In this document: in pieces, positions 18,391-54,757 of the stretch | How the letters are laid out: each line of letters begins with the position of its first letter | How positions within the stretch are numbered: the first letter of the stretch is position 1 | Assembly: GCF_029962835.1 (NCBI RefSeq) | Contig: NC_080574.1 | Span: 41,656,501 to 41,720,500 of the forward strand | Length of the DNA stretch: 64,000 nt | Source: Magnolia sinica | Taxonomy: Eukaryota > Streptophyta > Magnoliopsida > Magnoliales > Magnoliaceae | Reading direction: 5' to 3' | Translations under genes and position numbers: made by a program | The notes under the pieces: generated by a model | What the model was told of the DNA's origin: nothing | Database searches by the model: none | Seen by the model: only the letters and a program-made list of their open reading frames with translations

Positions 18391-18836
18391 GGGAGACCTC
18401 CCCCTGAGACCTCCCCCCAAAAAGCACTCTCTGATTTTTTCTAGGGTTGGGAAGAAAACAAGAAACATTACCATTAGTTAAACTGGCACAAAATTGCTCT
18501 CCCAAAATCTGAGGGTGAGTTGGGGGTGAATATCCTGAAAACGGTGATGAAGGCATTATGATGAAGATGGCGTGGATTGTTAGATTCAGGGGGAAGTCTA
18601 GTTGTTGGGTTGCTTTCATGGAGGCGAAGTACTCTAGAGACTTCCAGACAATAGGAGGTACGAGTCACACATTTTCGCTTCACCCTTGTGGAAGTAAATC
18701 TGCAAGTTAATCCTGACTGTTGCTGACCAAGCCCGTTGGTTAATCAGTTGTTGTGAGTGTAGCTTATGGGATGACGACTAGTCGGGCTTAGGACGCCTCA
18801 GCGCTTAGAGACTGTAGTCATCGCCACCTCAGTTTC
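18391..18836 (+). pseudogene. LINE copy 2, piece 1 of 5
   Basis: This piece is homologous to 16770-17200 of the LINE just upstream: 'gcactctctgattttttcta' matches 'gccttctctgattttctttg', and 'ttgctctcccaaaa' and 'gattcagggg' recur in order. It begins inside the region after reverse transcriptase, fused to the upstream LINE through a repeated 'gagacctcccc'. It is interrupted at 18836 by an LTR element and resumes at 25998. Frames are broken. Confidence 0.8.
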
Positions 18837-21086
18837 TGTCACACCCTGAAATTCGAGTATCTGAATAGAGTAATCCGAACCGAATCCCCAGCCCGTGAGG
18901 TACAAGATTCATTTCTATTTAAGTCTAAATAACTAATTTTCATTCTCAATATACCAAGATTCCTCATAACATCATTTACATCAACTAAACAAAAATAAAA
19001 ATTCCATGCCACAATGCCAAAATAATTAAGTAAAGTCACTCGAATTTAATGCATCATTCTTTCACTAAAATAAAATTGAGAAAAAGAAAATACATAATCT
19101 ATTACATCTAAAATAAAACTAAAATAAAAGAAATCTTTAAGACTAAGTATGACTTTGGCTCATCAATAATAGCATGCCTCCTCAAAGTATTCATACTCGA
19201 TATCTAAAATAGTTTAAACACCCTTAGTACAACAACTCAATAAGATCATTTTCATCCCAATTGAAATTTTTATGTTAGTACCATAACACACCTTCATAAT
19301 AATAAATAATAATAATAAACAACCTTTAAGGAGATAATAATTATTCACAAAAAGATTTTAAAATTAAAGAAAATGATTCCATAAATAATTGAATTAAAAG
19401 TGCACTCCTCTACAATTAACTTGAAAATATATCTACCATGACGATCTGTTAGGGAATGACCCTGGGCAAAGCACCACGTGATATCTTTTAGGGAACGACC
19501 CTAGGCAAAGCACCACGTGATATCTTTTAGGAGTAAATCCCGAGCAAGGCACCCTTGTGTGTATCTTTTAGGGAATTACCCAGGACAAAGTACCCATGAC
19601 GATGTTTTGGGAGTGACCCCAGGTAGAGCACCCGGGTGTGTATCTTTTAGGGAATTATTCAGGGCAGAGCATCTGTGTCGATCTTTCGAGAATGACCCTG
19701 GACAGAGCACTCGTATCACGATATTTTAGCTATACACTCTAAAATTTCACAATTTTTATATACCAAATATAACTAATTACAGCTATACCAAATATAACTA
19801 ATTATAGCTACATTACATCAACAATGTATTCTCTCAAAAATAGACATACCACATATATAACAGTTCAGATTTTTATGTAGAAGCAACTTCAACAATAATA
19901 CAATGAAATTTTGAATAAAATAATAACACATTAATGGTAACTCAAAGAAGGCATACATTATAAGGGAAAAATAGACATAATATATTTACGTATAAGTAAT
20001 CATCAATTCAATGTGTACCTTATTTAATAAAGCAAAAGGAATTCATGAATTTTATAATTAAAAATAATAATCGTTTGATGGTAACTCAAAAAAGCATATA
20101 CTAGGAGGGAAAAACAAACATAATATATATTTCAAATTTTTATGCACAAGTAGTCATTAATCTGTATATTATTTAATAACACATCAGCACAAAAGGATTC
20201 AATGCATATGATATTTAAGTATAAATCTCAGTGTGGGGTGTGGGTTAGATTACCTACCTGATGCATAACCTATGTCAAAAGACAACTATAACAAAACTTA
20301 ATGGTTAATGATCTTGCCGAGTAAGATGGTACCTTCTCTAATGGGGACTTGTTGATCAATGATTTTTCAATGATTTTCCTTCTTCAAGATGATGAATTTT
20401 GATATTGGAAGCTTGGGAGGTCAAGGATTAAGAATTTAATAGAGATTTGTCAATGGTTTTTGAAGTTTATGGCTTCGTGGTTGATGTGGCATGCGTGCAC
20501 AACACACGTCGCTGATTATTATCATTATTTTCTACCTTTTTTTCTTCTTTTCGTAAGATGAATAATTTGAATGGCTTTGGGTGTGGATTCGTTCTGTTGT
20601 AGAGCGAAAAAATTGGAGAAGTGGGAGACAGGTTTGGGATATTAGTTTACTAGTGACACATGTCGTTCATTATGTGCATGTGTGTGTGTGTTTCTTTTTC
20701 TTTTTTCTTTTTAAATTTTAAAGATAGGTTAAAATGACAAGATCCATCGAATGAATGGTTCAGATCATGACCCTAAGCCCACTTACCCGATGGTTTGGAG
20801 GTAATAGATGGTTCCAGGAGCCATTTATTGTGAGCAGAAAAAATAGAAAAGAAGAGAAAAGCTCGACAAGATTGGTTAACACGTCTTTTGTAATATATTT
20901 TATTTATTTATTTTTACACAATGGGCCCTATAGTGGCATTATAGGGAATCCATTCTATTCATCTGTTTTGCCTAGTCATGCTAGGGCATGGGTTCAAAAA
21001 TGAAGGTGATCTAAAGTTGTGGTGGGCCACACTAAAGGGATCAGTGGGGTTGGGAGTACCTACTATGTAAAAAGTGGGATGTTATA
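18837..21086 (-). repeat. 3' LTR of the Gypsy-like element
   Basis: About 2250 bp, aligned along its whole length with 23802-25997. On the plus strand it starts TGTCACACCC. It includes a minisatellite at 19443-19730. Confidence 0.85.
19443..19730. repeat. ~40-bp minisatellite inside the LTR
   Basis: About seven degenerate units of roughly 40 bp with the core 'atcttttagggaatgaccc', then 'aggcaaagcacc'. The other LTR has the same array at about 24415-24700, so it existed before insertion. Confidence 0.8.
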
Positions 21087-23801
21087 TTCTACTCCCCTTA
21101 ACAAAATTTCATCCTCGAAATTTACTACACTATCGCCTATGCTAGAAAAATCAATTAAGGTATGTTTGTGACGATAGTGGTTCTGTGTTGTCATTTCCTC
21201 TGGTTGCATCACTTCTTCAAGAGGCAACTTGTGTACTTGTACTGAAGCTTGCTCCTTTCTAGTGATGTGATGGTGTCCTGAATTGACGGATTTGATGGCG
21301 TCCTCTTGGCTTAGATTGTTGTTGTTGAGGTCGAGTCTTTAAGCGTCATGATAGCTACGATTAATGTTGATGTTGTTAAAATAGTTGCCAATGTTTTTGG
21401 TGTGGTCCTTGGTATGGTTGCAGTGTTGACAAGTATGACGAAGGTTGTTGGCATTTTTGTCTTTAAGATACTTGGTATTGTTGTGGAGAAGCTCAGTGCT
21501 GCAGTTGAGATTTTGAATGTTGTGGCAACCCATGTGGACGATTGGTGTGGTCCACTACTTCTTTACTCAGCCAGTTGTGCGACAGTTGGTGTGATCTTGC
21601 TCCAGATTCAGACTTATTTCTTTATCTGCTTCAAGCTCTACCCGAAGTCCTTATTGACTTTCATCGGTGCGACTATGAGATAAATTGATAGAGTTCTTTA
21701 TTCTCTCTCATGATAGGCAAGGTCCATATGGCCTAATCTTAGTCAATAATCCACTATGAGGTCACTAGTTCTAATTCTATCATGTAGTAACTTAGAAATC
21801 ATTTTAAATCATATTACCTATCGCCTATATAGAGATGTAAGTGTGAAACTAGTACCTTTAGAATTCTTTAAGTTAGCTGGTTGTGGGGTATAATCCACTC
21901 ATAACGTTGTGTTCTCGCGTGGTCATGCAATGGCATCATCCTCTTATGTCGTGTAGTCCTGTGAAGGTGGCAGATTGACTTAACCTTGAACATAGTCCTT
22001 GTATTGTTGAGGTGCGTACTCCTAAGGATGAGTTGAATTGTTTTGGATTATGTTAGGCCGAGGACGCATCTTAGAGTTAACAATCGTGGTGTCTGAATTT
22101 TTGGTCTCAGTTGCTGAAACAAGTGAGGCCTAACTTGTTGTTGCATTTGTTGAAGCTATGAAGACCTTTGCGGATATGGCTATAATGGTGTCGAAGTCAA
22201 CTGTGTACCTTGAGAAGGCGGCGGAGGTGTCCTGTATGAGATTGGTTGCACAAATAATGGAGGTGGTCGGTAGACTTGCTGTGGAAGTCCCTGATTATGT
22301 GAATATTGGAAATGAGAGGACCGTCGATAAAGGTGGGCATGATGACCTATGTATCCACAGTTATGACAATTTCCGATGAAGAGTGGTGGAGGTTTCATAG
22401 TGGCATGCTTGGTTTCTGGTGCATGTCCTTTTAGCCTTAGTTGTTGATGCTAGAGAGATCTAACATGTAGATGCGCCTGTTAAGGTGGCTTCTTAGATAT
22501 CTCGTGGATAGTTCTTGTTGGTGTGACCTTAGTTACGACTGTAGCGCCTCAATGGAGGTGAGCTTGGGGTGGCGGTAGTGTTGAAAAGTATCATATGAAT
22601 TGTTAGTACATAGATGGGGACGTAGGTTGTAGCGATGGTCCGTAGACTTGTTGAGTTGGTCCGTAGACTCGTTAAGGCAATGACCCTAGACTCTGTAGTT
22701 GGCGAAGCTGAGATGGTTGTTGACGTGGAGGCCCAGGTGTCCCTTGAGTTTACAATGTAGCAGCTTCTAGGATGTGGAGATGACACTCATGTTGGTACTC
22801 AAGGCGAGGCAATCGAGCATGCGTACAACATGGTTTTCAAATCCTCAGTTGTAGTAGGATTTTTAGAGTAGGGTAAGGATGACGTGAATGTTGGTTTAGT
22901 CAAACATTGTGTCTAATTCAAAATTTTTCTAGCAAGCTACCAAAGTGCTAAGATTGTCTGGGGTCTTAATTATTTTACTCGCAAGAAATCCACTCCCAAT
23001 GACATCAATTCAAGGGTTCTTGATGGAGCGTTGTGGCTCGTATCATTTATAGGTATAATTTATGATCGATTGGAAGGAATACTAATACATTGAAGATTTT
23101 ATCAGATTGGAAAGAAGATCGGATGGTCTAGAAGAGTTATACACATGGGTTTAAGAGAAATTGAGTTAAGATATGTATCAAGGTTCAGGTGCAGAGAATT
23201 CAAGTTCTTAAATTGTCTTGTTATTAATTTAAGGACGTATAGGTATTTTATAGATCTCAAAATTTTTCTGAAGAAACATCTATAATTTTAATATCATTAT
23301 GCAAAATTTCAGCCCCATCAAATGTCTATAGAAAATACTAAAATTCAAAAAATGAGAGTTGTTCAAAGCTGAACTATTTTTGGATAGTTTTAAAAAATCC
23401 CAAATCAGTATAAAAAAAGTATGAAATTATAATTTCTAATTATTTTTTAATAAAATTAAACTTATCCATCTACGTTCTGGATATTGAATCACCTCGATCG
23501 GAGTTATACTTAATTAGTCATAATTTTTGTAAGTCAAGTATTTTCTACTTATTATTGTCCAACTTACCATAGTAGGTAATAATTTCTTAAAACTTCTTTA
23601 GGATCCAGATTTGGGCTATTAGTTCAGTGCATAGCTTAAATAAGATTAAATATGATGTCAATATAAATGAAAGAGAATCTAAGTTCATATTTCTAATTTA
23701 AATTATCACAAAAGCAAAGGTCCTAAGTTAGGGTCACTAATTTAATTGTTATCTTATATCCTCAGATAGAATCTAAAACCTAGATGGATCTGATACCATT
23801 C
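21087..23801 (-). other. Interior of the Gypsy-like element
   Basis: About 2.7 kb with only traces of gag: a proline-rich, zinc-knuckle-like segment near 22.2-22.4 kb on the minus strand. No protease, reverse transcriptase or integrase could be recognised. A large deletion derivative or a non-autonomous (LARD-like) element are both possible. Confidence 0.6.
23786..23798 (-). other. Primer-binding site (initiator Met tRNA type)
   Basis: The minus strand reads TGGTATCAGATCC, three bases inside the 5' LTR, and matches the 3' end of plant initiator-methionine tRNA (TGGTATCAGAGC type). It fixes the element's orientation as minus. Confidence 0.8.
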
Positions 23802-25588
23802 TGTCACGCCCAGAAATTCGAGTATTTGAATAGAGTAATCCGAACCCGAATCCCAATCCCGTGAGGTACAAGATTCATTTTTATTTAAGTCTATATAACT
23901 AATTTTCATTCCCAACATACTAAAATTACTCATAACATCATTTACATCAACTAAGCACAAATTAAAATTTTCATGTCACAATGCCAAAATAAGTAAGTCA
24001 CTTGACTTCAATGCATCATTCTTTCATTAAAATAAAATTGAGAAAAAGAAAATACAAAATCCATTAAGTCTAAACAAAAACAAAAACAAAAGTAATCCCT
24101 AAGACTAAGTATGACTTTGGCTCATCAACAATAGTATGCATCCTCGAAATATTCATACCCAGTACCTGAAATAGTTTAAACACCCTGAGTACGACAACTC
24201 AATAGAATCGTTTTCATCCCAACAGAAATTTTTACATTAATACCATGACACACCTTCATAAAAATAAATAAATTTTTTTTAAAAAAAAAAAAAAAACCTT
24301 TAAGGAGACAATAATTACTTATAAAAAAATTTTAAAATCAAAGAAAATGATTCCATAAATGATTGAATTAAAAGTGCACTCCTCTACAATTAGCTTGAAA
24401 ATATATTTACTTGACGATCTTTCAGGGAATGACCCTAGGCAGAGCACCACGTGATATATTTTAGGGAACAATGGGAAGAGAACCACGTGATATCTTTTAG
24501 GGGTGAATCTAGGGCAGCACACCCATGTATGTACCTTTTAAGACATAGCCAAGGAAGAACACCCATGCCGATCTTTCGAAAGTGACCCCATATAGAGTAC
24601 CTGGGTCTATATCTTTTAGGGAATTACTCAAGGCAGAGCACCCGTGTTGATCTTTCGCGAATGACCCCAAGCAGATAACTCGTATCACGATATTTTAGCC
24701 ATACACTCTAAAATTTCACAATGTATTCTCTCAAAAATTGACATACCACATATCCAGTAGTTCAGATTTTTATGGAGATGCAACTTCAACAACAATACCA
24801 TGAAATTTTAAATAAAATAATAACCCATTGATGGTAACTTAAAGAAGGCATACACTATAAGGGAAAAACAGACATAATATATTTGTGTATAAGTAACATT
24901 AATCCAATGTGTACCTTATTTAATAAAGCAAAAGGAATTCATGAATTTTATAATTAAAAATAATAACTGCTTGACAGTAACTCAAAAAGGCATATATTAA
25001 GAGGGAAAAATGAACATAATATATTTCAGATTTTTATGCACAAGTAGTCATCAATCTGTATATTATTTAACAACACATCAACACTAAAGGATTCAACGCA
25101 TATGATATTTAGGTATAAATCTCTGTGTGGGGTGTAGATTAAATCACCTACCTGATGCATGAACTCTGTCAAGATACAGCTATAACACAACTTAACGATT
25201 GATGATCTTGCCGAGGAAGATGGTACCTTCTCTAATAGGGACTTGTTGATCGATGGTTTTTCGACGATTTTCCTTCTTTAAGATGATGGATTTTGATGTT
25301 GGAAGCTTAGGAGGTGAGGGATTAAGAATTAAATGGAGATTTGGCAGTGGCTTCGGAGGTTCATGGCTTCGTGGTTGAGGCGGTATGTGTGCACAACGCA
25401 CGTCACTGATTATTATCATTATTATCAATATTATTTTCTTCCTTTTTTTCTTCTTTTCGTAACATGAATGGTTTGGATTGCTTTTGGTGCGGATTCGTTT
25501 TGTTGTCGAGCGAAAAAATAGGAGAAGTGGGAGAGAGATTCAGGATATTGGTTTAGCGGTGACATATGTCGTTCATTATGTGTGTGTA

Positions 25589-25622
<34 letters not shown>

Positions 25623-25997
25623 AAGATAGGTTAAAATGACAAGATCCACCAAATGAACGGTTCATATCATGACCTCGGGCCCACTTACCCGATGGTTTAG
25701 AGGTAATAGATGGTTCCGGGAGCCTTTTGTTGTGAGCGAAAAAAAAAATAGAAAAGAAGAGAAAAGCTTGGGAAGATTGGTTAACGCATGTCTCTTGTAA
25801 TATATTTTTTTCATTTATTTATTTTTACACAATGGGCCCTATAGTGGCGTTGCAGGGAATCCATTCCGTTCATCTGCTTTGCCTAGTCATGATAGGGCGT
25901 GGGTTCAAAAATGAAGGCAATCTAAAGTTATGGTGGGCCACACTAAAGGGATCAGTGGGGTTTAGAATACATACCGTGTAAAAAATGGGATGTTACA
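23802..25997 (-). repeat. 5' LTR of the Gypsy-like element
   Basis: 2196 bp. On the plus strand it starts TGTCACGCCC and ends GGGATGTTACA. It aligns with 18837-21086 and contains the same ~40-bp minisatellite (about 24415-24700). Confidence 0.85.
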
Positions 25998-26123
25998 GTT
26001 TTATTCAGCGAGAGTTCATGAGTTGATTGGGCCTAATGGCTTGAGTTCACAAGTTCGTGTGCAACATCTCCTCCCTCAGGCAGTGGTTGATCACATTTCG
26101 GATGAGGAGATCTATACCTTTAC
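25998..26123 (+). pseudogene. LINE copy 2, piece 2 of 5
   Basis: 126 bp that continue piece 1: 'cctcaggcagtggttgatca' matches 'ttgccgcaagttgtcatcaa' of the upstream LINE (about 17260), and 'gatgaggagatctatacct' matches 'gatgaagggatctgcacct'. It is cut by the next insertion at 26124. Confidence 0.8.
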
Positions 26124-27084
26124 TGTAACACCCCGTCCATTCCGTACTATTCTTTTATACTTATGTACATGATGATCGACGCCCTTAGCTAGACATGGAT
26201 TAGTCATTCATAGTACACACCTAACTGACCAGAACCCCAAGACCTTGAAACTTATCTCATATCGACCGCCCCGTCGCCTCAATTATGGAGGTACAACCCA
26301 TGCGTCTGTACGATACTCCGTTTGTGATATATGCTATGAAGAATAATTAGTGTATCATGTGCACATGGTGCCATGTACTCCCTTCCATACATGTGCACAA
26401 CACATGTCATACACACATGCACATGCCACGCATGGGTAAGAGAATCACTACCCATGTGTGTGATGTCACACACCCATACCTCTCATCTCTCATGTGCATG
26501 AAAAGTCAACTCTCTTCCATGCCACACCTCATGCATGACATCATCACACCATGTCATCCCATACTCCTTTAATCCAATATTAATTACAAAGCATGAATTA
26601 ATTACCATAATCCTATCATAAGCTAAGATTAATCACATTAGCCTAACTTAACCATATTTTATTCATTTCTCTACATAAACCCCTCTATCCCTTAGCATTT
26701 CACCATTTTCCATGGAGAGAGAGAGAGAGGAGTGATTTTGGTGGGCCATCAACACCATCAATCCCATCCCTTCCATCCATCTCAACCATCAATTCCATCC
26801 CTTCCATCCATCTCAACAATCCATGTAATTCATCAAGGTGAGTACACCCTCTCCACTTATATTTATTTTTGTTTTCATTGTGTTTATGGATGGTGAAGAT
26901 GACACTCTAATGTTAGGAATGATATGGATGATGAACATAATATGAATGATGGTGGAGATAATTATAATGATGATGATGATGCTATTAATGGTGTGGATGC
27001 ATAGGAGAATATATTTTTAAAAAAAAAAAAAACAAGAAGAAGAAGAAGAAAAATCAAATTATTCTAGACTTCTTGTGGAACCCA

Positions 27085-28615
27085 TTGATAGTGGGCCCCA
27101 CCAAATTGTTTATATGACATCCAAATCATCCAAGCATTGGCCCATTAGGGTGGCCAAACTCACACATGCACACGTGCACATATCAAACAATATATATTTT
27201 TGTAAATAAAATAAGAGAGATGGAGAGACGCTACTGCCCAGCGTACAGGGACACTGCTTGCCTGCTGCATGAATTCGATAAGAGGGGCTATGGGCCCACA
27301 ATAGGCCCTACCCTTGATGTATGTACCTAATCCACACCATCCATCATATTTCCCAGCTCATTTTAGACCTTGAGCTGAAAAATAAAGCCAATCCAAATCT
27401 CTGGTAGGCAACACCATCAAAAAAAGGTAATAATTTGTTAGGGCCCACTGTGATGTTCTGTACATTGAAAAATAATGAATAGTGGACTTGTTACATTTGT
27501 CCTGGGCCATAGAACCCAGCTAACGGATTAGATTGTCCTATTGTGGGCCCCATACTTGAAAACCTATGATTTCAAAAAAAAATAAAAATAATGGCAGCAC
27601 CTGACGCAGTTGCTATCAGCGTCAAAATTAACACTGCAGCAAGCAGCGTCTATAGCTGGACGCTGGAAGAATGTGGCCCCACCTTAATGTATCTTGAACA
27701 TCAGCACCGTACATTTAATGGGTTCCGTTTGGAAATGGGTCACCTCCAAATTTTAGCCATACACGGAACTCAGGTGGCCTACACCATTAAAAATCATGTA
27801 TAGACATGCTAAAACATATAGAAGTACTTGCTGGGGCCCACTTGAAACTTTGATGCATCTGAAACTTGGACTGACCCCTCCACCAAGTGGGACACACACA
27901 ATGGATGGACTGGATCTCTCAAGTGACCCACCTTGATGAGAAAATATACAAATAATAATAATAATAATAATATCAAAATAAAATAATGGTGTGAGGAAGT
28001 GACGTCCTCACTAGACGTCCACATTTGGGGTAAAATTTTGTGGGCTGATCATGGCCACACCATGATGTATGTGCTAAATCCACACCATTTATCCATCTTA
28101 CTAGCACCATTTATTGTATGGTCCCAAAAATCAGGCCGATTAGAAGTTCATGTAGGTTATGCCACTTGGACAGTGGAAATTGTATACAAAATACTTAGAT
28201 TTTTCTAGGGCCCACCTTGGTGATGAAAGGCATATCTGGGCTATTCATTCACTCCTTCAGACCATTTTAAGTCATGAGCAAAAGAATGAGGCAGATCCAC
28301 AACTTAGGTGGACCACACTATAAGAAACAGCGGGAATAAAATTCTCTACTATTAAATTATTTAAGTTCTACTGTGATGTGTGACTGCCACCAAAGTTGGG
28401 TCAGCCATTAGATCTTGGAGCCAACTCATTACGTGTATTTTACATCCTAGTCGTCCATCATTTAGACCATCCATGTGTTATAAGTCCCACTCGACGTATG
28501 TACCTTATATCCATATCGTTCATCTAATGGGTGGTATCAGCTATGATGTTGTTTGTTATATGAATTGTTCATGGGGTGAACCCCACCATGTCAATGGGAC
28601 CCACAATTATACAAA

Positions 28616-28648
<33 letters not shown>

Positions 28649-28870
28649 GGAAAGGAAATTGCATGCTTACCAATGAAAGCTTCCCTGGACATAATGCGAT
28701 GCATGTGAAGCCCACCTAGGTGCATGTGTTATATACCCACACTGCCTATATATTTTCCAGTCACTTGGGAAGTGAGCCCACCTCCTGCCCGTGGACACAA
28801 GATGAAGTAGAACTCAATTTTAGGTGGGCCAGGCCATGCTACAAGTAGAAACAGTGAAATAACCATTGGA
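27085..28870. repeat. Cluster of MITE-type fragments and (AAT)n runs
   Basis: Repeated 'gtgggcccca', 'tgatgtatgt...aatccacaccat' and 'gaccacac...' blocks show several decayed small non-coding elements inserted in the larger element. Short AAT runs lie at about 27951-27971 and 28617-28648. No coding capacity. Confidence 0.55.
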
Positions 28871-33154: not shown

Positions 33155-33192
<38 letters not shown>

Positions 33193-34549
33193 TATTACCA
33201 ATTAAACTTTATTAATTAATAAACGATTATTAATATAAAATATAATATGTTAGCAATTATATTTAAATATAAAATAATGCAATATATATGTATATATACA
33301 TATTCTTATGTAAGATAATACTTACATAAGTGGGTTGTGGACCTGACCGGCCCACTAGCTCGATGAACGGTCCTGATCTCATGAGTGAACCACAGATTAT
33401 CAATGGATTGATGATAATCGTCATTCAAAGGCTAATTTTCAAGCTGATATGGCCCACTTAAGACTTGGATCGTCTTCATTCGTTGGATTGGACCTTATTT
33501 TGAGCTGAAAAAACAGATGAACGGAGTGGATTTCTGTTAGACCAACCCTGTGGGCCCTACTCGTGATGTGTGTGCACGCCCATGTGTGCACCCGCCACGC
33601 ACCAGTCCTGGAGAAGCCGGTCAATCGGGTTTGACCCGATATCTCAAAAAAAAAAAAAAAAAAAAAAAAAGGAGATTTCTTTCCCTGCCTTCCCGCCAAC
33701 GCCCATTTAAAACGAGCCATCCCCGTGCGTGATATTTGGCCCACCTACACTGGCCACCTGGACGATCCAAACCGTCCATCTTGAAGGTCAAGAGATTTAT
33801 ACCGTATCCCGAAGTTTCACACGTTTCCTCCTACGTGAAACTGCACAAGCACGGTCTCAATGGGGCTGTGCAAAACCACACTTCCAAAAGTGGAAATCCT
33901 TCTGCTTTCCACGCGAGCAATCCGCGTGCATCTACTCCATTCCATCATAGCCGTGCATTCCAAGAGATATCAGCCCTCCACGCAAGGGCTTCTTAAAACC
34001 CAAACCGAACTTTCACCACCGCCGCTTTTGAATCTAGACCCTTGTGAGATGCTAATCTTCGTCCATTTTGTGGGTCTCACAAGTACCTAGGGACCAATCC
34101 GGTCCTTCCAAAGGTTCCAGATGGGACAATGAGCCATCCAATGAAAAACCGCCATCGACAGGCCCATCATCTTCTCCGTTAGCTGAGAAACCCACCACCT
34201 CCTGGTGGGCCCCATTTAGTGATCTGGGACGTCCATCAGATGGAACATCATGCCAGAAACACATCCATAGAAGCCTTATAGCCTTGCACAAGGGATTCCA
34301 CTCGATCAGCAATTCTCGAGGCGTTTAGTTTGTGTGAAAACGCAAACTACGACTAATACAGTGATTAGCATTCTAAACTAATAACTACGTTGTTGGCGTG
34401 GTTTACAAAAGCTCTCTTTTAGGGCAGCCATCTGAAAAGAAAGAAAAGAAAAAAAAAGGGGGTGGTGTAATGAGAGAAGAGAGCACCGCTGCCACTCTGT
34501 TTCAGCTCGTCCCGAGCCTGGACGTGGCCGACCGATTCGTCTCAGCCTA

Positions 34550-34579
34550 GTGATTGCTGGACGCTGCACAAGAAGAAAT

Positions 34580-34622
<43 letters not shown>

Positions 34623-35150
34623 GAAAAGAAAGAAGGAAGAAAGAGAGGAACAGGGGAAAAAAGGGCAGAGAGGGACGGCGTTGCGCTGCCATTGCCACAC
34701 CCCCTGGTCCGGGCTGGAGTCTTGTTGGAGCTCCAGCAGGAAAGGAAGAAAGAGAAAGGAGAGGAAGAAAAGAGAGAGAAAGAAAGGAAGAAGAAGAAGG
34801 AAAAGATGAGGGAGAAAAGAGAGAGGCAGGGTGGTGCGACTACTATTGCCGCACCGAGTTAGGTAGAGGGTAGTTGCTGAGTGCGAGACGCGGTCCAGCA
34901 AGACTGAGTTGGGTGCGGTCGGGTCCAGCAGCTGCTGGTCGGTATCGATGAGAAGAAGAGAAAGGAGGAAGGTAGAGAGGAAGAGGAACGAGTAGAGAGA
35001 GGGGGCTGGTGGTGATTGCAGCTGAGTTGACTCAGCTGGGACCGAGTCCAGTGAGTCAAGTTGGACTTGGGGTTGTCCAGGTCTAGCTGGACATTTCAGT
35101 GGGGAATGAGAGAGAGGAAGTGAAAGGAAGAAGAAAAAAAGGGGGGAGGA
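34550..35150. repeat. GA-rich tract with (GA)n run
   Basis: A pure GA run at about 34580-34620 lies within 600 bp of purine-rich plus strand. The long opposing frames (107 and 102 codons on plus, 204 on minus) consist of Glu/Arg/Lys or Leu/Ser/Phe and reflect composition. Confidence 0.85.
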
Positions 35151-35869
35151 GATCAAGTTGACTCGGTTTGCTCTAGCTGAGTTCGCGTCGAATCGCGAAG
35201 TTAAACTACCGAGTCATGGTAAATCAAAACCCATTTCCTTTGTTATTATTGAGTTGACTCAGTGAGTTTTCACTGAGTGTATTAAACCTAGAAGCCAAGC
35301 ACTAACTATTTCTCTTAATGTTTTGTTTGGGTCGTGGACACCTATCATCGAGTAGATTTGACTCTATCAAACATCAGTCATGCTATCTAGCGGGCCACGC
35401 AACTAGATTGCTTGATCGAGGTGAGGACTCAACCTTTGAGCTCCCCACTTAATTTTATCAATCTAAATATAGATGATGACATGATTCCTCTAATCGAGTT
35501 ACTTACCTTGTTATTAAATATGCTAATTTGTTATGAAATAAATTCATGTGTTGGATGATAGGCATCTCTCTTTAATTATGACATGCACAAATGGTTTGAT
35601 GATAACATGCTATTTTCTTTAGTTGTACATGCATTGATTAACTACATGTTACCGTTTGCACTTAAGTGATGGAATGAATGGAATTTATCTTGGACTTATC
35701 ATGTGGTCCCTATTTGCCTTGCATGGCTTGGATCACACCTTGCCTTACATAGTTTGGACCGCATGTTGCCTATGTGGCTTGGGTCGTCTAATTGCCCTCA
35801 TGGCATTGATGGATCATTGGTGCCCTCTTGTGGCTTGATGGTTACATCCATATATCTCGTTACTTCCTA

Positions 35870-36290
35870 GCCATCTTGCGGTATTCAGTCGTACCCTGAT
35901 TTTCCAGATGAAGCTGAAGTTCGTTTATCGATTTTCTATCCATCTTACGGTGTTCATGTAGGACATGATTTTCAGGTGGTCTAGGGTTTGTATGTTGTTT
36001 GTTTCTTCATCTGCGATGTTAGTCATACCATGATTTCAGGGTGGAGCTGAAGTTCGTTTATCGATTTTCTAGCCATCTTGCGGAGTTCACGTACGACATG
36101 ATCTCCAGATGAAAAAGAGGTTTGAAGATTAATTTTCTATTCACCTCATAGATTTCACTTGTGCTATGATTTCTGGGTGAAGCTAAAGTTCACTTATCGA
36201 TTTTCTAGCCATCTTGCGAGATTCACGTACAAATGCGATTCTCGGGATGTAATAGAAAGTCGTATGATTGATTGTTTGGTTATCTGGACA
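35870..36290. repeat. ~90-110-bp degenerate direct repeats
   Basis: The phrases 'gaagttcgtttatcgatttt', 'tagccatcttgcgg' and 'ttcacgtacgacatgat' recur three to four times in the same order. They lie within the nested 4.2-kb element. Confidence 0.7.
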
Positions 36291-36989
36291 TGTTTTCCTT
36301 ACATTACGACTGCCATTATATTTTTCTTATGATGAAATTCTGTTGATTGGTTTGATTTTCTTAATATGAGTATAACTAAGAAATGCCCTGTTTAGTGTAT
36401 CTAATTTCATGACTTGTTATCTATATTAGATTATGAATGATGAGTGCGTAATCTTAGAGGGTGCTCCTCGCTACGATAGCCATTGACGCTATCAAATCGT
36501 AACAGTTGATGCAGGTATAGGGCGAGCCGATGTTGTTCACTAAGTTGTTGGATCAGATCGCGTAGCTAGGGAGTTAGGTGGGGTCCTTATGGCCCGCGTT
36601 AATCTCCACTACTAGTTGATAGACTCATGTTTTTACTTGCTTAAACTTTGTTATTTGATATTGTATAAGTCCTGTATGGGCGCTACATTTGGAATTTTGT
36701 AAGGATCAGAATGTTCTTATTCAATGCATGGTTTATTCTATCTTCATTGCTGTTAACTCTGATTAATGATAAACAGTTCAAATTTACGCTGGATTTTATA
36801 AGCTAACACTCGGATTTTTGGGAAACGGGTTATACATTCGGGTCCTAAAACACGAGGCGTTACACATGCTCAACCAGTCGAGGGTCCGCTCGACCATTCG
36901 AGGTTATGTAGATTCGTTTCCGGATTTGACGCAGACTGCGAATTTTGGAGTCGGTTTTCGCACGGGTGCGAAAGGGGAGTTGTCTAAAC

Positions 36990-36997
36990 TATAAATA
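36990..36997 (+). promoter_or_regulatory. TATA box of the Copia 5' LTR
   Basis: TATAAATA, followed by 'ggggttc'; the same box is at 41496-41503 in the 3' LTR. It is the likely core promoter of the element, with transcription starting some 30 bp downstream. Confidence 0.6.
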
Positions 36998-39900
36998 GGG
37001 GTTCTTAGGGCTTTCCTAGGTATTATGAGAGTTATTCCAAGGTTTAGGCAAAAGGTTTTCTCTATACTTCCAAGGGAGAGGTTAGTATATTGCCTTGTAA
37101 TCTTGTTTTCTTCAAAACGGAAGTTTGCATCCGTGATTTTTTACCCTTGTTTGAGGTTTTTCCATGTATATCTTGTCTTGCGATTTTTTTGGAATGCTTT
37201 GATTCTTCTTCTAATTTATATTTCTTCTTGTTTATCGTTTGTGGGTGAGACCTGAGATTGGATCTCAGTTCACTGCGTTGTTGGCATGCTGTGCAACAAC
37301 TAGTATCAAAGCTATTGGTTTTAGTTCTATTGGGAGCAATGACGGAAGAAGGAAAGACTAGAATTGAGAAGTTTGATGGTTCAAACTTTGCCTTCTGGAA
37401 GATGTAGATGGAGGATTATCTATATTAGAAGGATCTCTATATTCCTCTAGGAGGAAAAGAGAAGAAACCAGAAAGGATGACAGATGATGAATGGTTTTTA
37501 TTGGATCGGAAGGCTTTAGGAACAATCTGACTCTCTTTGTCTAAGAGCGTCGCCTTCAATATATCCAAGGTGAAAACCACAAAAGAATTAATGGAAGCCT
37601 TAGCCACCATGTATAAAAAACCATCAGCGTCCGACAAGGTTCATCTTATAAAACAGCTATTCAACATGAAGATGTCAAATGGTGGGTGCGTGGCTGAAAA
37701 TCTAAACGAGTTCAATACAGTCATAAGCCAGTTGGAATCCATTGGCATTGTTTTTTAGGATGAGGTTAGTGCATTATTGATCTTGTCCAGTTTGTCAGAC
37801 GGTTGGAATGGCTTGGTGATTGCTGTGAGCAATTCTTCAGGGTCGACAAACCTGAAATTTGATGATGTGGCTGATCTAATTCTTAATGAAGAATCTAGAC
37901 GAAAGGCATTAGGAGTTTTAGGGGATTTAGGAAATGCTCTAATCGTTGAAGGAAGAGAAAGATCGCTGAACAAAGGAGGCAATAAATACGGACGTTCTAA
38001 GTTGAGGAAGAAGTCTAAAGGACTGAAAGACAAAGATGGGTGTTGGCATTGCGGGAAGAAGGGGCACATGAAACATGATTACAGGGCGCTTAAGAAATAA
38101 GAAGGAAGCTCTCAAGGCGGGAATGATTCAGTGAATCTATCTAAGGAGAGCGACATAGAGACGTTAATCTTGTCTCTTGATGTGAGGAATAAGTCTTGGG
38201 TTATAGACTGGGGTGCTTCGTTTCATGCCACCTCATGTAAGGAAGTTCTGCATAATTATATATCAGGTGACTTCGGGAGAGTCTACCTAGGTGATGATTA
38301 GCCGTGTAGTATTATTGGAAAGGGAGACGTTCATATATATCAAAAAGATGAAACGGCTTTGAAATTGAAGGATGTCAGACATGTACCGAGTTTGAAACGA
38401 AACTTGATATCGGTAGGGGAGTTGGCCGATACCGGATATGTGACGACCTTTACTAGTGATTCCTAGAAGATCACAAAAGATGCCTTGGTGATATCTCGAA
38501 GCAAAAAGGAATGCACTTTATACGTAACTTCAGGATCATATAGTTCACTTGCAGTCGCATCAACTGGAGTGAATGGGCAGTTATGACATCAGAGGTTGGG
38601 ACATATGAGTGAGAAGATGATGAAAGTGTTATTGTCAAAAGGGAAGTTACCAGGGCTGAAGTCTATTGACTTGGAATTCTGCGAGGACTGTGTATATGGC
38701 AAACAGAAGAGGGTAAGCTTCAAGAAGATAAGACGCGCTCTAAAGACGCATTTGTTGGACCTTGTATACACTGACGTGTGGGGACCGGCACAAGTATCAT
38801 CTCTTGGCAGGTCACGTTATTTTGTTTCCTTTATTGATGATGCTAGTAGAAAACTGTGAATTTATTTCTTAAAGAACAAATCTAATGTATTTGATATATT
38901 TAAGAAGTGGAAAGTAATGGTAGAAAATGAAACAGGTAAAATAGTCAAATGTCTCAGATCAGATAATGGGGGAGAATACTGTAATAAGAGATTTGAGGAG
39001 TATTGTGCAGCAAATGAAATCAAACATCAAAAAATAATTCTAAGGACACCACAGTAAAATGTTGTGGCTGAGCGCATTAACAGGACCATCCTTAAGCGCG
39101 CCGGGAGCATGAGGCTACATGTAGGGTTGTCCAAGACGTTTTCGGCAGATGTTGTGAATACTGCCGCATATCTCATCAATAGAAGTTCCTCAACACCATT
39201 AGATGTGGGCTACCAAAAGAGACGTGGACTGGAAAAAAAGTGAACCTTGCACATCTCAGAGTATTTGGTTACACTTCATACATTCACATTGATGCAGAGC
39301 ATAGAAACAAGCTGAATGCGAAGTCCAGGAGGTGTACGTTTATAGGCTACAGACAGTATGATTTTGGCTACAAGTTTTGGTATGCAGAAAGCAAGAAAAT
39401 CATCAGAAGCAAGGACGTAGTCTTCAATGAAAAAGTGATGCATAAGGACAGTGTGCAGGAAAATAAGGCCGAAGAGAAAGAATTCATAGAGTTGGAAGAG
39501 TTACCGGACACAGGTGTTACAACACCACATAATGATCATGCACAGGAGCATTATGAGGTAGAGCCACATACACCGGTTGTGAGGAGGTCTACTCGGGAGA
39601 GGAGACTCACGGTCCGATACTCACCCTCCTTACATTATCTACTGCTGATAGATAATGGTGAACAAGAGTATTTTAAAGAAGCATGATAATCAGAAACATA
39701 GGTTAAGTGGGAGCAGGCCATGGATTATGAGATGGACTCTTTTGAGTCTAATTGTACATGGGAGCTAGTCACTCTACCCAAGGGTAAGAAAACTTTTCAT
39801 AACAAGTGGGTTTACAGAATGAAGGAGGAGCACGATGGTTCGAAACGGTATAAGGCCAGATTGGTCATGAAAGGGTTTCAACAAAAGGCGGGTATCGGTT

Positions 39901-41278
39901 TCAATGAAATATTTTCACCGGTAGTGAAAATGTCTACGATTCGCATGGTCTTGAGTATAGTGGCTACAGAGGACTTACAGTTAAAGCAGCTAGATGTTAA
40001 GACAGCCTTTCTTCATGGGGACCTTGAAGAAGAAATATATAGCATCAGTGGACAGGATACGTGGCACTAGGAAAAGAGAATAAGGTATGCAAACTGAAGA
40101 AGAGTCTATATGGCCTGAAGTAGGCCCCAAGGAAGTGGTATAATAAGTTTGACAGTTTCATGTCGAGAAATGGTTTTAGGAGATGTCATGTAGACCATTG
40201 TTGTTACTTGAAGAAGTTTGATACGTCGTATATCATCCTTCATCTATATGTTGATGATATGCTTGTGGCCGGTTCAAGCATGAAGGACATCTCAGATCTC
40301 AAAAAACAATTGTCTAGAGAATTTGTCATTAAGGATTTAGGAGCTACAAAACAAATCCTAAGCATGAGGATAAAGCGTGACAGGAAAAATATGAAACTAG
40401 TTTTATCACAGGCAGAATATATAGCCAAGGTACTTAATTGATTCAATATGGGAGGTGCTAAGCCGGTTAGCACTCCATTAGCCAACCACTTCAAGCTTCC
40501 AAAGGAGAAAGGTGCAAAGACGCAGGAGGAACGAGACTACATGGCTAAAGTCTCATACGCATCAGCTATTAGGAGTCTCATGATGCTATGGTGAGCACGA
40601 GGCCAGACATTACTCAAGCAGTGAGAGTTGTTAGCAAGTTCATGAACAACCCCGGGAAGGAACATTGTGAAGCTGTGAGGTGGATCCTCAGATACCTAGT
40701 AGGTACTGTGGATATAGGGTTGTGCTATGGTGGATCGAAAATCAAGCTACAAGGCTACGTAGATTCAGATTTGGCATGAGATATCGATAGCACAAGAAGC
40801 ACTACAGGTTATGTCTTTACTCTGGGTAGTGCTGCAATCAGTTGAGTCTCTCAGTTACAGAAGATAGTATCTATCAGTACGACGGAAGCAGAATATGTTG
40901 CAGCTACAGAAGCGTGCAAGGAGATGGTATGGATGCAAGGTTTCATGGAAGAGTTGGGTAAGAAGCAAGTATATTGCAAGCTGTACAGTGACAGTCAGAG
41001 TGCAATACACTTGGCTAAGAACTCGGCCTTTCATTCAAGGACCAAGAATATTAACATCAGATATCACTTCATACGTTCGTTACTAGAAGATGGATCGATT
41101 GCTCTGGAAAAGATCCATACAAGTGAGAATCCTGCGGATATGCTGACCAAGGAGATCACACGGGAGAAGCTGAAGCTCTATTCAGCTTTCATTGGTCTTT
41201 AGGCTTGAAGAAAGGGAGGTGGTACACTCCGGATGAAAAAGACGAAGGTTTATGGCGATGTATCTCCAAGTGGGAGAT

Positions 41279-41809
41279 TGTTGAGATGTGGAGCTACATC
41301 TAGACGGTCGCTCTGGTCGAGTGGCCCACTCGACCAGTCGTAGATTGGCTCAACTCAAAGTCTAGTGAGCATCAGTTTTTTGGGTTCCGCGGTACTCAAC
41401 CGGTCGAGGTTACGTAGATTCATTTCCGGATTTGACGCGGACTACGAATTTTGGAGTCAGTTTTCATAAGGGTGCGAAAGGGGACTTGCCTAAACTATAA
41501 ATAGGGGTTCCCAGGGCTTTTATAAGTATTATGAGAGTTATTCCAAGGTGTGGGCAAAGGGTTTTCTCTATACTTCTAAGGGAGAGGTTAGTATATTGCC
41601 TTGTAATCTTGTTTTCTTCAAAGTGAAAGTTTGCATCCGTGGTTTTTTACCCTTGTTTGGGGTTTTTCCACATATATCTTGTCTTGTGGTTTTTTTTTTT
41701 TAGAATGCTTTGATTTTTCTTCTAGTTTATATTTTTTCTTGTTTATCATTTGTGGGTGAGACCTGAGATTGGATCTCGGTTCACACCGTTATTGGCGCAC
41801 TGCGCAACA
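41279..41809 (+). repeat. 3' LTR of the Copia element
   Basis: 531 bp, starting TGTTGAGATG and ending GCGCAACA. It aligns with the two parts of the 5' LTR and carries a TATA box at 41496-41503. Confidence 0.88.
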
Positions 41810-41979
41810 CTCCTGCCAAAGGTTTCTATCCTAACATGGAACATCATACACAGGGTTGTTCCCGTGGACACCAGAATTCAAGCCAAAGGGTCTGTATTGC
41901 TTCTAAATGCCCATGTTGCCCTTCAGCTCAAAACATTCCATATTGAGACGATTGATCACATTTTCTCCTGGGGCGATAA
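41810..41979 (+). pseudogene. LINE copy 2, piece 4 of 5
   Basis: It continues piece 3. It encodes the zinc-binding region after reverse transcriptase ('LPKVSILTWNIIHRVVPVD'), matching 'LPPKLSLLTWKIIHKAIPVD' of the upstream LINE. It is cut after 'ggggcgataa' by a solo-LTR-like insertion. Confidence 0.85.
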
Positions 41980-43940
41980 TGTCACGCCCCGAAATTCGAG
42001 TACAGAGTGTGCACCCTCAGACCCGAGTTTCTGCCCATGACACGTACACTGAGTGTACTAATTTTATTCAATTATACAATTATTCATTTACCTACTAGCT
42101 CTACCGCGATCATTTATTCCAATAATTAATCATAAACATAACTAAGGACCATCTCAATTGGGATCTTATGAAATGAAATAAACATGTCCAACAACTTGAA
42201 AGAATTAATTTACAATCTAAGAAAATTAAATATAATTAAAGTAAAAATGTCATGACTAGTCTAAGGCTGCAACTTCTTCTTTTGTCAAGTAGGGTCACGT
42301 GTCCCTTAAGTCCTTTCTGCCTTGACCACATAAGTCCTTTCTGCCTTGACCATATATTCCTATTTTTGAGCCACCGGCCCACCCTCATTCACATCTGTAC
42401 GGTTTTTCCATCAATAAAAAATATAAGCTGGCCAGGCTTAGTGATATAACCCAGCATGGTTCATAATCATATCAATTAAAATAATACAAAAATACATGTA
42501 TAATGATGTAAAATGAGGTATGAATGTATCAGATGGGGTGATCGTCCATCTACTTGGGTTGGAAGTCGTCAACTCACATCCACCCGTTGGGTAGGCTTCC
42601 ACCTTTCGGTAGGCTTGGGCATAGCCCGCATCTGGTAACGCTCTACCAGGATCGACATTTCTTCTAGGGAGGGCCCCTAAGATCGACCATGCATTATGCA
42701 ATGCAATGAATGAGGGATGATATGTAAATGCATATTTTTCATATTTGGCATAGTTGTCTCGATTAAAATATTCACATATAAATTTATCGTATAATTATCA
42801 TATCAAAATATTCAAACCAGTAAATCAATCTAACAATCACAATGATTTATTTTAATTTTAATGAATTATAAGACAAGTTGGGTTACTCACCTGAGTCTGG
42901 TAGTGTAGAATCCACAGGGTAATTATGTTAGTTTGAATTCAGAAATCCTATCAGTTATATCAACAACATTATTATTCATATGTTTTTATTACATGGTGGG
43001 GCCCGCCTCTGATTAACATCCTAGGTGGCCAGATCCAAAATAATCGAATAATTAAAATTTCTATTCTATTTTTTTCTCCTTTTTAAGATTATAAAATTAA
43101 ATGATAAGTACTTGATCGGGGTGGTCCATCGGATGGTCAGATCATTCAGATTCTTGAGATATTATCATGTTTTGCCTCTACACATTAGATGGATGGTGTA
43201 GATCTAACCACACATACACCGATGGCCCATCTCGACCTTCTACGCCAAGTGATACTAACACTTACGCAAAAATCTAAGATTCCTTTATTAAACACTTTTA
43301 GATCTGACTAATGTGGCCTATCTGATTGTTAGATTGATCTAAAAATTATGGCCCTTGTATATTTTGGCCTTAAGGATCATATGAGCCGTACAGATCTATC
43401 TTAGCACAATCAGATTCCATCCATTTATTTTATTCCTAAAATATTACTAATTAGACCAAAATCATAAAAATATCACTTTATTAAAATTGACTCTATACAC
43501 CTATACAATGATGGTGTGGATGATCCACGCCATCCATTGTATAGATCAAGAAGAAATTAACAACATAATAAAAAGTTAAAAAGATCTAACGATTAGAACT
43601 TATCTGATCGAGCCTTCTTAGAATTTCCTCTTCCTTTTACTTTAGGCTTCCTATATCCTTATTTATTTTAATGCAGAAACCTTCCGTATTCCTTTTAAAT
43701 AAAATTCTCATAAGATAGGATGAGCACATCCTCCTTTATCCTGAATTTGAATTTTTTTATGATATCTAATAAAAAATTTATTATTACCACTTCAAGAATC
43801 GATCCCTAAACATCTCTCTCAACTAAGAATTTCGCTACCAACTCAACTATTGACTTGTTTTTTATTTTTTATTTAAAAATAAAATCTTTAAATATTTAAT
43901 TTAGTTTTTTTATAATGTACCAAAATTTAGGGTTGTTACA
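41980..43940 (-). mobile_element. Solo-LTR-like insertion, 1961 bp
   Basis: It starts TGTCACGCCCC and ends GGGTTGTTACA, with a perfect 5-bp target duplication, GATAA (41975-41979 and 43941-43945). The first 22 bases are nearly those of the Gypsy-like LTR at 18837 ('cccgaaattcgagta'), but the rest differs, so it is a related family. By analogy with that LTR it lies in minus orientation. No coding domain. The simplest reading is a solo LTR left by recombination. Confidence 0.8.
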
Positions 43941-44800
43941 GATAAAGCAAGAAAGGTATGGGAAAGCTTTGAGTTGCTATTTAATATACACGCCTCTAGT
44001 GCCACCTCGACTGTCGATAGGTCAACCAGATGGTGGGCAGCAACTGCAACTTTTGACTGTTTCCTCCTCTTATGGGGGCTCATTCCCGTCTTCATCCTCA
44101 GGAAAATTTTGATGGCCAGGAACAACACTTGCTTTGAAGAATCCATTATATGTACGCCTAAGGTGATCTCCAAGGTCTATCACTAGATCAGTCTAGTTGG
44201 CCCCACTCTCTCCCTTCCCAAGGTTGTGAAGAGGTCCACATCAGGAGTGCTCAAAGCTTTGGGGATTGAAGGGCCAGTTGTCCAACACGAGGAAGGCTTA
44301 TATGGTCAAGTGGGACAGACCACAGCATCGCTGGGTTAAGATAAACGTGGATGGATTTGCATTAGAAAACGGGGGCCCCTAAGACCAGGGGGTTAGTGGG
44401 AGTTGGTAGAAATAGCTCGAATGACTTTCTTTTACTATCTCATCAAGGTACGACTTTGGCTCCAATACTAGGGTGATTATGAAGGTTCTCTCCCGGTGCG
44501 TGGAATTGGACTTCACCAAGGTGGAAGTGGCAAGTGACTCTTAGTCAACGGTGGGAGTCCTCTCCAAGCAATCTCCTCCATCGTTCATGTGGTACGGCGG
44601 GTTAGGACCTTGATTTTTATTACTTAGAAGGGAGGTTACCTTCTCACACACCCCTAGGCAGGCTGGCTTCCTATGGGAGTGACCGTCAGATGCATTGCCA
44701 ATTCGGACCATCGACAGAGCTCCCCTGTTACTAGAGGTCTTTTATTCCGAGATAAAACGCGGCTGGGTAGCTTGAGAGTGGGCTAATTTTGTTTGTCTTT
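43941..44800 (+). pseudogene. LINE copy 2, piece 5 of 5 (RNase H and tail)
   Basis: It resumes right after the GATAA duplication. It holds the end of the zinc-binding region ('KILMARNNTCFEES'), then RNase H at about 44310-44700 ('RWVKINVDGFALENGG', 'VEVASDS') and the LINE C-terminal tail near 44730. It is broken by several stops and frame changes. No A-rich tail or target duplication could be assigned with certainty. It closes the LINE copy that begins at 18391. Confidence 0.8.
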
Positions 44801-54443: not shown

Positions 54444-54674
54444 CTTTGATAGAAAATAAAAAGAAAATGATAAAACATATATATGTGGAGAATGCTCCAT
54501 TGCTCTCATAGCACTATTAAGTTATAGTGCCCCTAGTTGCATTGGAATACTTTGACAGTTCAATCCATTGATCTAGATGTTCATTGGGTCCAACACGAAT
54601 TTCATGTACCACCATGCAGTAATCACACTGATTTAACCAATACTAACCATTCGATCAATGTCCTTTAATATGAA

Positions 54675-54756: not shown

Positions 54757-54757
<1 letters not shown>

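Follow-up and report, generated by a model that had tools for sequence, protein, structure and literature searches.

A 64,000-nucleotide stretch of Magnolia sinica DNA (the window) contains an old plant LINE lying in five pieces with LTR-type inserts between them. This nest is a genuine, unusually tidy case of an ordinary process. Our reading, which we hold to be very nearly certain, is that a single LINE copy was the target of four LTR integrations, that insert E later entered insert C, that inserts B, D, and E were reduced to solo LTRs, and that the B family is mostly LTR.

One LINE copy in five pieces

The split LINE extends from 18419 to about 44886. Its pieces, delimited with LINE relatives and a joint alignment, and the features around them are as follows.

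15530..18405, plus strand: upstream LINE fragment of another subfamily, with RVT_1, zf-RVT, and RVT_3 (RNase H) across three frames
18393..18418, no strand: 13-bp tandem unit GAGACCTCCCCCT, about 1.9 copies, where the two LINEs meet
18419..18836, plus strand: split LINE piece 1; GTTTC, its final 5 bases, is the insert A target-site duplication
18837..25997, minus strand: insert A, LTR element, duplication GTTTC/GTTTT
25998..26123, plus strand: split LINE piece 2
26124..32347, plus strand: insert B, 6.2-kb solo LTR, duplication TTTAC/TTTAC
32348..32481, plus strand: split LINE piece 3
32482..41809, plus strand: insert C, Ty1/copia element whose frames are broken, duplication CTCCA/CTCCT
32644..36864, plus strand: insert E, 4.2-kb solo LTR inside the 5' LTR of C, duplication CATGC/CATGC
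41810..41979, plus strand: split LINE piece 4
41980..43940, minus strand: insert D, 1.96-kb solo LTR, duplication GATAA/GATAA
43941..about 44886, plus strand: split LINE piece 5, including the 3' UTR to the A-rich end

A preliminary description had proposed aligning the pieces to the neighboring LINE. They were colinear there, with overlaps never beyond 5 bp, and the same was true on individual LINE copies at other places in the genome. We fetched 20 of the 26 distinct other places that matched in the same 1.84-Gb genome. All five pieces were matched in order at 9 of the 20 (L009 to L016 and L018), and 8 of these 9 had no insert longer than 200 bp. The other, L015, has a 1.9-kb insert within the piece 5 region, and the match of L009 stops at position 156 of piece 5. 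The remaining 11 relatives matched some pieces only, at the cut-off used. A local scan of the fetched LINE loci turned up few copies of the inserts.

We then aligned eight relatives, the neighboring LINE, and the five pieces jointly. Neighboring pieces overlap by exactly 5 columns at all four joins, and the duplications there are GTTTC/GTTTT, TTTAC/TTTAC, CTCCA/CTCCT, and GATAA/GATAA. At random LINE positions, a 5-mer would match by chance with a probability of 0.0016 if exact and 0.018 with up to one mismatch; the duplications of A and C carry one mismatch each. After the four duplications are subtracted from 1,794 bp, the target is 1,774 bp long. It holds 24,674 bp of inserted DNA, which replaces the earlier estimate of about 25 kb in about 1.7 kb.

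The ends of the LINE also had to be moved. It had been placed at 18391 to 44800, but 18391-18418 lies outside the copy (most relatives begin matching at 18419), and the 3' UTR runs on to about 44886. A scan of pieces 1 and 5 in three forward frames each found no domain families. When the flanks of the entire split copy were searched for a LINE-type target-site duplication, only two 7-base matches between them appeared, and the 5' flank may have been lost.

The neighbor at 15530-18390 had been called a complete relative. It does have the RT, zf-RVT, and RNase-H domains, but it starts partway through the RT region, and the 3' end that relatives have is missing. Its RT and RNase-H domains make it a plant L1-type LINE, and we take the LINE type here to be the plant L1 type with RNase H. 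The upstream and split LINEs are not close (58 to 67%). Insertion of one LINE into the other was considered and rejected: the upstream LINE breaks off near 18405, short of the 3' end that its relatives have, and no duplication backs a simple insertion. No LINE-type flanking duplication was found at the joint (18393..18418), where the 13-bp tandem unit looks like repair filler.

The inserts and their families

Insert A is an LTR retrotransposon with paired TG...CA LTRs (18837-21086 and 23802-25997; 87.6% identical; K2P, 0.137) and a duplication with one mismatch. A PBS-like TGGTATCAGATCC adjoins its right LTR on the minus strand, and a polypurine tract adjoins its left LTR, which ends in TTATA in place of TTACA. 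Scans in all six frames, at E values up to 0.05, detected no coding domains in the A interior, B, E, or one D-family interior.

Insert C has the features of a Ty1/copia element: gag, integrase before RT (all at 37408-40480), paired LTRs, and a 5-bp duplication with one mismatch. Its 5' LTR (32482-32643 and 36870-37298) is interrupted by E, its 3' LTR is at 41279-41809, and a PBS-like TAGTATCAAAGC lies immediately past the 5' LTR. The LTR K2P is 0.119 and 0.109 for the two stretches. One frame of a copia piece, used as query in a structure search, returned two weak matches to importin alpha chains, which we did not use as evidence.

CATGC flanks insert E at 32639-32643 and 36865-36869, as read in the sequence. 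E is a single LTR with its own direct duplication and two-LTR relatives. These relatives occur as same-strand pairs, with a PBS directly past the LTR end of the upstream copy at three loci (C16, C12, and C3); no PBS directly follows E itself in the sequence read. What E has in common with the scored relatives is mainly its last 40% (from about position 2569) and small patches, which gives its 5' part weaker support as LTR.

Insert D is likewise a single LTR with a direct duplication and two-LTR relatives. Its family has an interior of about 2.8 kb, and three same-strand LTR pairs lie 2.8 kb apart. Both of the pairs examined have a PBS and a polypurine tract, with flanks AAACC (exact) and GTCAC/ATCAC. 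Three single D-type copies had both flanks read: one carries an exact duplication (CGGCA), and the other two need a one-base shift to fit.

Insert B is also a single LTR with a direct duplication and two-LTR relatives, from a family in which LTRs of about 6 kb flank an interior of about 0.38 kb with a PBS and a polypurine tract. Both flanks were read for 15 single-unit copies elsewhere: the 5-bp duplication is exact in 10, has one mismatch in 3, requires a one-base shift in 1, and has two mismatches in 1. Elements of about 12.3 to 12.6 kb are complete at C5 (duplication TGAAT) and C9 (duplication GGTGA; LTR K2P, 0.084). At two copies, both outer ends with matching duplications could be confirmed; five more that were read did not yield both ends. 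All six cases read had a short interior with the inner ends of B-type LTRs on either side. However, 6 of the 12 outer stretches of those interiors (about 6 kb away) had no match to B, and both ends were found at C5 only. Therefore, the full pair of 6-kb LTRs is proven at C5 and C9 only.

All 20 sampled LTR-PBS junctions belong to the same interior length class (18 by similarity and 2 sequence-divergent ones judged by eye), and none of these 20 has a coding version with B-type LTRs. A set of 40 junctions had been ranked by their match to the short interior, a ranking unable to reveal a coding version. A one-off deletion as the source of the short interior is ruled out by its recurrence. A tandem array on C1 has four LTR ends spaced 6,342, 6,370, and 6,368 bp apart. 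It is a tentative possibility that the B family is an undescribed, highly successful non-autonomous LTR family whose mobile unit is nearly all LTR, with interior length kept while sequences drifted to 78 to 96% identity, producing solo LTRs of 6 kb and tandem arrays in large numbers and thereby shaping the genome.

History of the nest

The target would have been a single 5'-truncated plant L1-type LINE copy of about 1.77 kb, hit by four separate LTR-retrotransposon integrations. The 5-bp duplications are present at the joins, and staggered cuts by integrase probably made them. E integrated later, into the 5' LTR of the copia element C, as its nesting shows. Recombination between LTRs would then have removed the interiors of B, D, and E, leaving solo LTRs of 6.2, 2.0, and 4.2 kb; we call them solo LTRs because two-LTR relatives exist and the duplications are intact. 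B was presumably mobilized by proteins of another element, and its long flanking repeats presumably ease conversion to solo LTRs.

Could the pieces instead be two or more LINE copies lying in order by chance? LINEs do adjoin here, since a second one of another subfamily is directly upstream. However, the overlaps with uninterrupted relatives are exactly 5 columns at every join. Furthermore, in the joint alignment L009 and L011 are within the three nearest relatives for all five pieces, and L014 is for four of the five (for piece 4, L010 is narrowly ahead of L014, 78.7 versus 78.1%). We therefore consider separate copies very improbable. B, D, and E might also be whole single-unit elements of another type that makes 5-bp duplications. 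Their second LTRs are absent from the window, and B and E have no detected domains. However, the B and D families have two-LTR members with a PBS and a polypurine tract, the E family has pairs on the same strand in which a PBS follows the upstream copy, and all three inserts end in TG...CA, which leaves little likelihood for this alternative. An assembly artifact is the least probable explanation of all: the region is repeat-rich and comes from a single assembly, but the limits of every insert coincide exactly with element ends and matching duplications, a pattern that misjoins would not create. The proposals of one LINE in five pieces, of four LTR-type inserts one of which holds a fifth (relatives have empty sites, and the evidence identifies every insert as an LTR element or a solo LTR), and of 5-bp duplications at all five have held.

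The nest was also described as an unusually dense insertion hotspot, and the evidence for this is suggestive. Four of the five insertions are in the 1.77-kb LINE, though the DNA already inserted would quickly have become a much larger target. If insertions fell uniformly on the nest as it grew, P is 0.010 for the best of 60 orders (so at most 0.010), with a median of 0.0025, and P is 0.042 for all LINE insertions falling within 415 bp. The 20 sampled relatives contain 2 inserts longer than 200 bp in 30,341 bp. However, these tests were chosen post hoc, on a case picked as striking; neither of the 2 inserts sits at a matching place; and chains that end early (L009 and L024) could conceal long inserts. 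We think it rather unlikely, but far from negligible, that the cluster is a true hotspot reflecting a preference for this LINE segment or its chromatin rather than chance. Of the order of events that the preliminary description expected to recover, one step stands. E lies within C and therefore came after it, and this is the only proven order. The K2P values of A (0.137) and C (0.119 and 0.109) do not clearly separate these two, and each of B, D, and E lacks a second LTR.

Comparison with known systems

The nest is a clean worked example, with a readable scar for each event and empty-site relatives that give the original state. It could be used to calibrate nested-repeat software and, with sister species, to date insertions. 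Its neighbor LINE copy resembles plant L1-type LINEs in its RT, zinc-binding, and RNase-H domains, as the nest's LINE type does in its A-rich 3' end, whereas the split copy is 5' truncated, with no domains in pieces 1 and 5 and no recognizable flanking duplication. C resembles Ty1/copia elements in gag, integrase before RT, paired LTRs, and the 5-bp duplication but differs in its broken frames and the interruption of its 5' LTR by E. Nested LTR-retrotransposon clusters occur in large plant genomes; wheat chromosome 3B, for example, has 30,199 nested insertions in up to 8 layers (PMC4290129). As in the nests described there, LTR elements lie inside older elements with recognizable borders; unlike in them, four inserts are side by side in one small LINE, and there are only two insert layers.

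The B family is more useful than the nest, as an LTR element reduced to almost only LTR, and it leads one to ask which autonomous element mobilizes an RNA that has hardly any room for genes. The family may be a LARD (a large non-autonomous element with a non-coding core domain): it is large, and no domains were found in its LTR, but its interior is only about 0.38 kb. TRIM elements have interiors of a few hundred bases and tandem LTR-interior arrays (PMC4717578, PMC7215508). The B family shares both; however, TRIMs have short LTRs and a small total size, and B LTRs are about 6 kb. One TRIM survey admitted LTRs of up to 500 bp (PMC4717578), and another survey required at least 1,000 bp between LTRs (PMC6317226). 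The B shape is outside the limits of both, so such families may be undercounted. Within the text that our literature search covered, the only family of this shape was Medicago Mtr77, filed as a LARD, with an LTR of 2,191 bp, an element of 4,668 bp, and a degenerate interior of about 200 bp (PMC2533021). B shares its long LTRs, tiny interior, and abundance, differs in having LTRs of about 6 kb, and is likened to it by description, not by sequence. With Mtr77 as a smaller precedent, the B family therefore joins a known element shape.

A single LINE copy in five pieces

In this 1.84-Gb genome, which its size, RNase H-bearing LINE type, and LTR families mark as probably that of a plant, the window (C2:41656501-41720500) holds a LINE split into the following pieces.

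18419-18836: piece 1
25998-26123: piece 2
32348-32481: piece 3
41810-41979: piece 4
43941 to about 44886: piece 5

We aligned the pieces to the neighboring LINE of another subfamily, as the preliminary description had proposed, and it matched five separate stretches in order, at 61-66% identity. Closer relatives were sought with piece 1. Twenty of 26 distinct other places were fetched, and six weak ones and the neighbor were omitted. Piece-by-piece alignment found all five pieces in order in 9 of the 20 (L009-L016 and L018), and only some pieces in the remaining 11 at the cut-off used. The L009 chain stops at position 156 of piece 5. Eight of the nine have no insert longer than 200 bp; the ninth, L015, carries an insert of 1.9 kb. 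When eight relatives, the neighbor, and the pieces were jointly aligned in separate rows, adjacent pieces overlapped by exactly five columns at all four joins (GTTTC/GTTTT, TTTAC, CTCCA/CTCCT, and GATAA). L009 and L011 were among the three nearest relatives for every piece and L014 for four of them; for piece 4, L010 (78.7%) was narrowly above L014 (78.1%). Identity of the pieces to L009, L011, and L014 was 76-84%, and to the neighbor 58-67% in this alignment. Therefore, the five pieces are a single LINE copy, as first described.

The LINE had been placed at 18391-44800. It is present, with limits instead at 18419 and about 44886. Matches start at exactly 18419 in 8 of the 20 relatives (L010-L014 and L016-L018) and slightly further in for the others except L021. 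Piece 5 aligns through the 3' untranslated region to about 44886, where the A-rich tails of relatives start. Because aligned relatives extend upstream of the point corresponding to 18419, this copy is 5'-truncated. We found no LINE-type duplication flanking it.

The upstream neighbor (from 15530) encodes RVT_1, zf-RVT, and RVT_3 domains across three frames. It had been called complete, which it is not, because its start falls within the reverse transcriptase region, and it breaks off near 18405, short of the 3' end that relatives have. Precisely where the two LINE fragments join, neither with an abutting end, a 13-bp unit occurs almost twice in tandem (18393-18418) and looks like repair filler. 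A short stretch at 63391-63489 matches 3' sequence of the upstream LINE at 70%.

The window has other repeats. A degenerate telomere-like array of 4.7 kb (1428-6111; unit CCTAAA, strong C-over-G skew) is distant from the chromosome end, at 41.66 Mb of 140 Mb on C2. A tandem array at 6541-6893 has a 26-bp palindromic unit, GGACGGTCCATGACCGTCC, inside an 87-bp higher unit. The regions 54203-55370 and 60005-61228 are 94-97% identical on the same strand, with two parts in swapped order.

54203-55197: same strand as, and matching, 60276-61228
55194-55370: same strand as, and matching, 60005-60181

Five LTR-type insertions and their order

18837-25997, minus strand: insert A, with LTRs of 2,250 and 2,196 bp, a primer-site-like sequence, and a polypurine tract
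26124-32347: insert B
32482-41809: insert C (including E), with copia gag, pre-integrase, integrase core, SH3-like, and RVT_2 domains
32644-36864: insert E, inside the 5' LTR of C
41980-43940: insert D

The description of five LTR-type insertions, one nested in another, holds: A and C have LTR pairs, and B, D, and E each consist of one unit that has TG...CA ends and is flanked by an exact 5-bp duplication. The LTRs of A are 87.6% identical (K2P, 0.137). A primer-site-like TGGTATCAGATCC, presumably of the tRNA-Met type, adjoins the right LTR on the minus strand, and a polypurine tract adjoins the left LTR, which places A on the minus strand. Its interior, 2.7 kb long, gave no Pfam domain match. 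The copia domains of C are spread over more than one frame, and its LTR stretches gave K2P values of 0.119 (410 sites) and 0.109 (132 sites).

There was no second copy of B, D, or E within the 64-kb window, and a domain scan of B and E found none. Among 40 scored places, the D family has three same-strand pairs about 2.8 kb apart (C1, C2, and C13). Interiors of the C1 and C2 pairs have a primer site at the start and a polypurine tract at the end, and their flanks read AAACC on both sides at C1 and GTCAC/ATCAC at C2. A six-frame scan of one such interior gave no domain match. Reading the sequence on either side of three single D-type copies gave one exact duplication (CGGCA); the other two copies need a one-base shift to fit. 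The 39 other places scored for E have in common mainly positions 2569-4221 (approximately) and a few small patches. At C16, C12, and C3, a primer site comes immediately after the upstream copy, and different sequence comes after the downstream one; the C16 copies match for a further 2.4 kb upstream (89.5%). We read D and E as putative solo LTRs. Separately, the interiors of A (21087-23801) and the D family (L076) are distant kin, at 61-68% over several stretches. The latter is internally repetitive, and neither gave a coding domain when scanned.

All five insertions show 5-bp duplications and would have been integrase mediated; LTR-LTR recombination may then have taken out the interiors of B, D, and E. 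A relative order of events had been proposed. Nesting makes E later than C and leaves A, B, C, and D unordered. With so short a C alignment, A and C diverge by similar amounts. In one study, about one-quarter of nested elements in plants appeared older than their host element (PMC7251063), so an individual LTR date carries little weight.

Insertion density in the LINE

In plants with large genomes, nested LTR insertions are commonplace; a study of wheat chromosome 3B gives 30,199 reconstructed nested insertions in up to eight layers (PMC4290129). Our 20 relatives spanned 30,341 bp of LINE with two inserts longer than 200 bp, and long inserts might be hidden in L009 and L024, whose chains end early. 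One insert is in L022. The other, in L015, has a flanking repeat of 8-9 bp by eye, so it is probably not of the window's LTR type but a DNA transposon. Four events in one given copy had a P of 7e-6 to 1e-4 (two to four events assumed). With even targeting of the growing nest (lengths as they are now), the chance that the LINE took four of five insertions was ≤0.010 (60 orders), and the chance of four sites inside 415 bp was 0.042. For the hotspot that had been proposed, these figures are suggestive. Because the tests are post hoc and take no account of the total LINE copy number, we grade a true preference for the LINE as no more than possible.

The family of insert B

Near-full copies of B are numerous (25 scored of 35,469 first-look candidates, a figure that is not a copy number). 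Both flanks were read at 15 single-unit copies, and ends misread by script were reread by eye. Duplications were exact at 10 and had one mismatch at 3; the L054/L055 copy fits with a one-base shift, and L061/L062 has two mismatches. A B-type solo LTR lies within a copy of insert C's copia family (L042/L043; C6:5130718-5136897), and at C2:109058581 and C4:69447024, other B-type LTR sequence borders the copy.

On C9, two same-strand copies (6,137 and 6,094 bp) are separated by 386 bp. This is a complete B-type element, with a primer site, a polypurine tract, and a GGTGA duplication on both outer sides. K2P between its LTRs is 0.084 (over 2 kb) versus 0.134-0.135 to B. We searched with this interior and scored the best 40 of 292 candidates (query included), all of which match across 367 or more of the 386 positions (90-100% identity); as they were ranked by their own interior match, they show recurrence and not the absence of other forms. 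At all six places read, B-type LTR ends bound the interior on both inner sides. The 12 outer stretches about 6 kb away comprised 6 without a match to B, 2 with mid-LTR sequence, 1 with LTR sequence that does not reach the start, and 3 outer ends (C7b left, C5 left and right). Therefore, only C5 is complete among these six (TGAAT at both ends; LTRs of 5.99 and 5.95 kb).

Same-strand interior spacings that fit a 6-kb LTR were 6,342 and 6,370 bp (C1), 6,331 bp (C4), and 6,433 bp (C5). At C1:53277014-53296111, B-type LTRs and interiors form a tandem array, with four LTR ends spaced by 6,342, 6,370, and 6,368 bp. Two interior pairs are much closer, so shortened LTRs also exist in this family.

C14:5889035-5891210: interiors 1,793 bp apart, LTR between strongly shortened
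C19:31767779-31769571: interiors 1,406 bp apart, LTR between strongly shortened

The exact junction motif of LTR and primer-binding site occurred 89 times (control, 0). From the start of C1 to C6:39428156, we read 20 of the 23 junctions outside the 40 known interiors; three (C1:103271322, C5:35994123, and C5:82637387) were omitted unseen. The same interior followed at 18 of the 20 (78-90% identity), with the next LTR start found by similarity in 17 and by eye in one (L118). At L123 and L124, the interior matched in short pieces only. Inspected by eye, both close at about equal length with a polypurine tract and then an LTR-like start, degenerate in L124. The LTR-end motif occurred 1,419 times, 38 of them with the primer site (both controls, 0), but exact motifs decay, so these counts yield no reliable solo-to-complete ratio.

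Proteins of another element may have mobilized this family. A bold reading, which we consider doubtful, is that it comprises undescribed, highly successful non-autonomous elements, almost all LTR, that shape the genome. We place it no higher, given that only one of six extra elements showed both outer ends. Our search found no description of the family, which is weak evidence given that subscription papers were mostly outside it. A plant-wide survey that set a minimum of 1,000 bp between LTRs reports LTRs of up to about 5 kb (PMC6317226). TRIMs are characterized by short LTRs and nearly no interior and LARDs by a core that yields no protein product (PMC7215508), and a TRIM survey set a maximum LTR length of 500 bp (PMC4717578). 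In these sources, the closest precedent is Medicago Mtr77, with an LTR of 2,191 bp, an element of 4,668 bp, and an interior of about 200 bp (PMC2533021). B's family is larger. Therefore, going by that account of Mtr77, it belongs to a kind of element already known, at a larger size.
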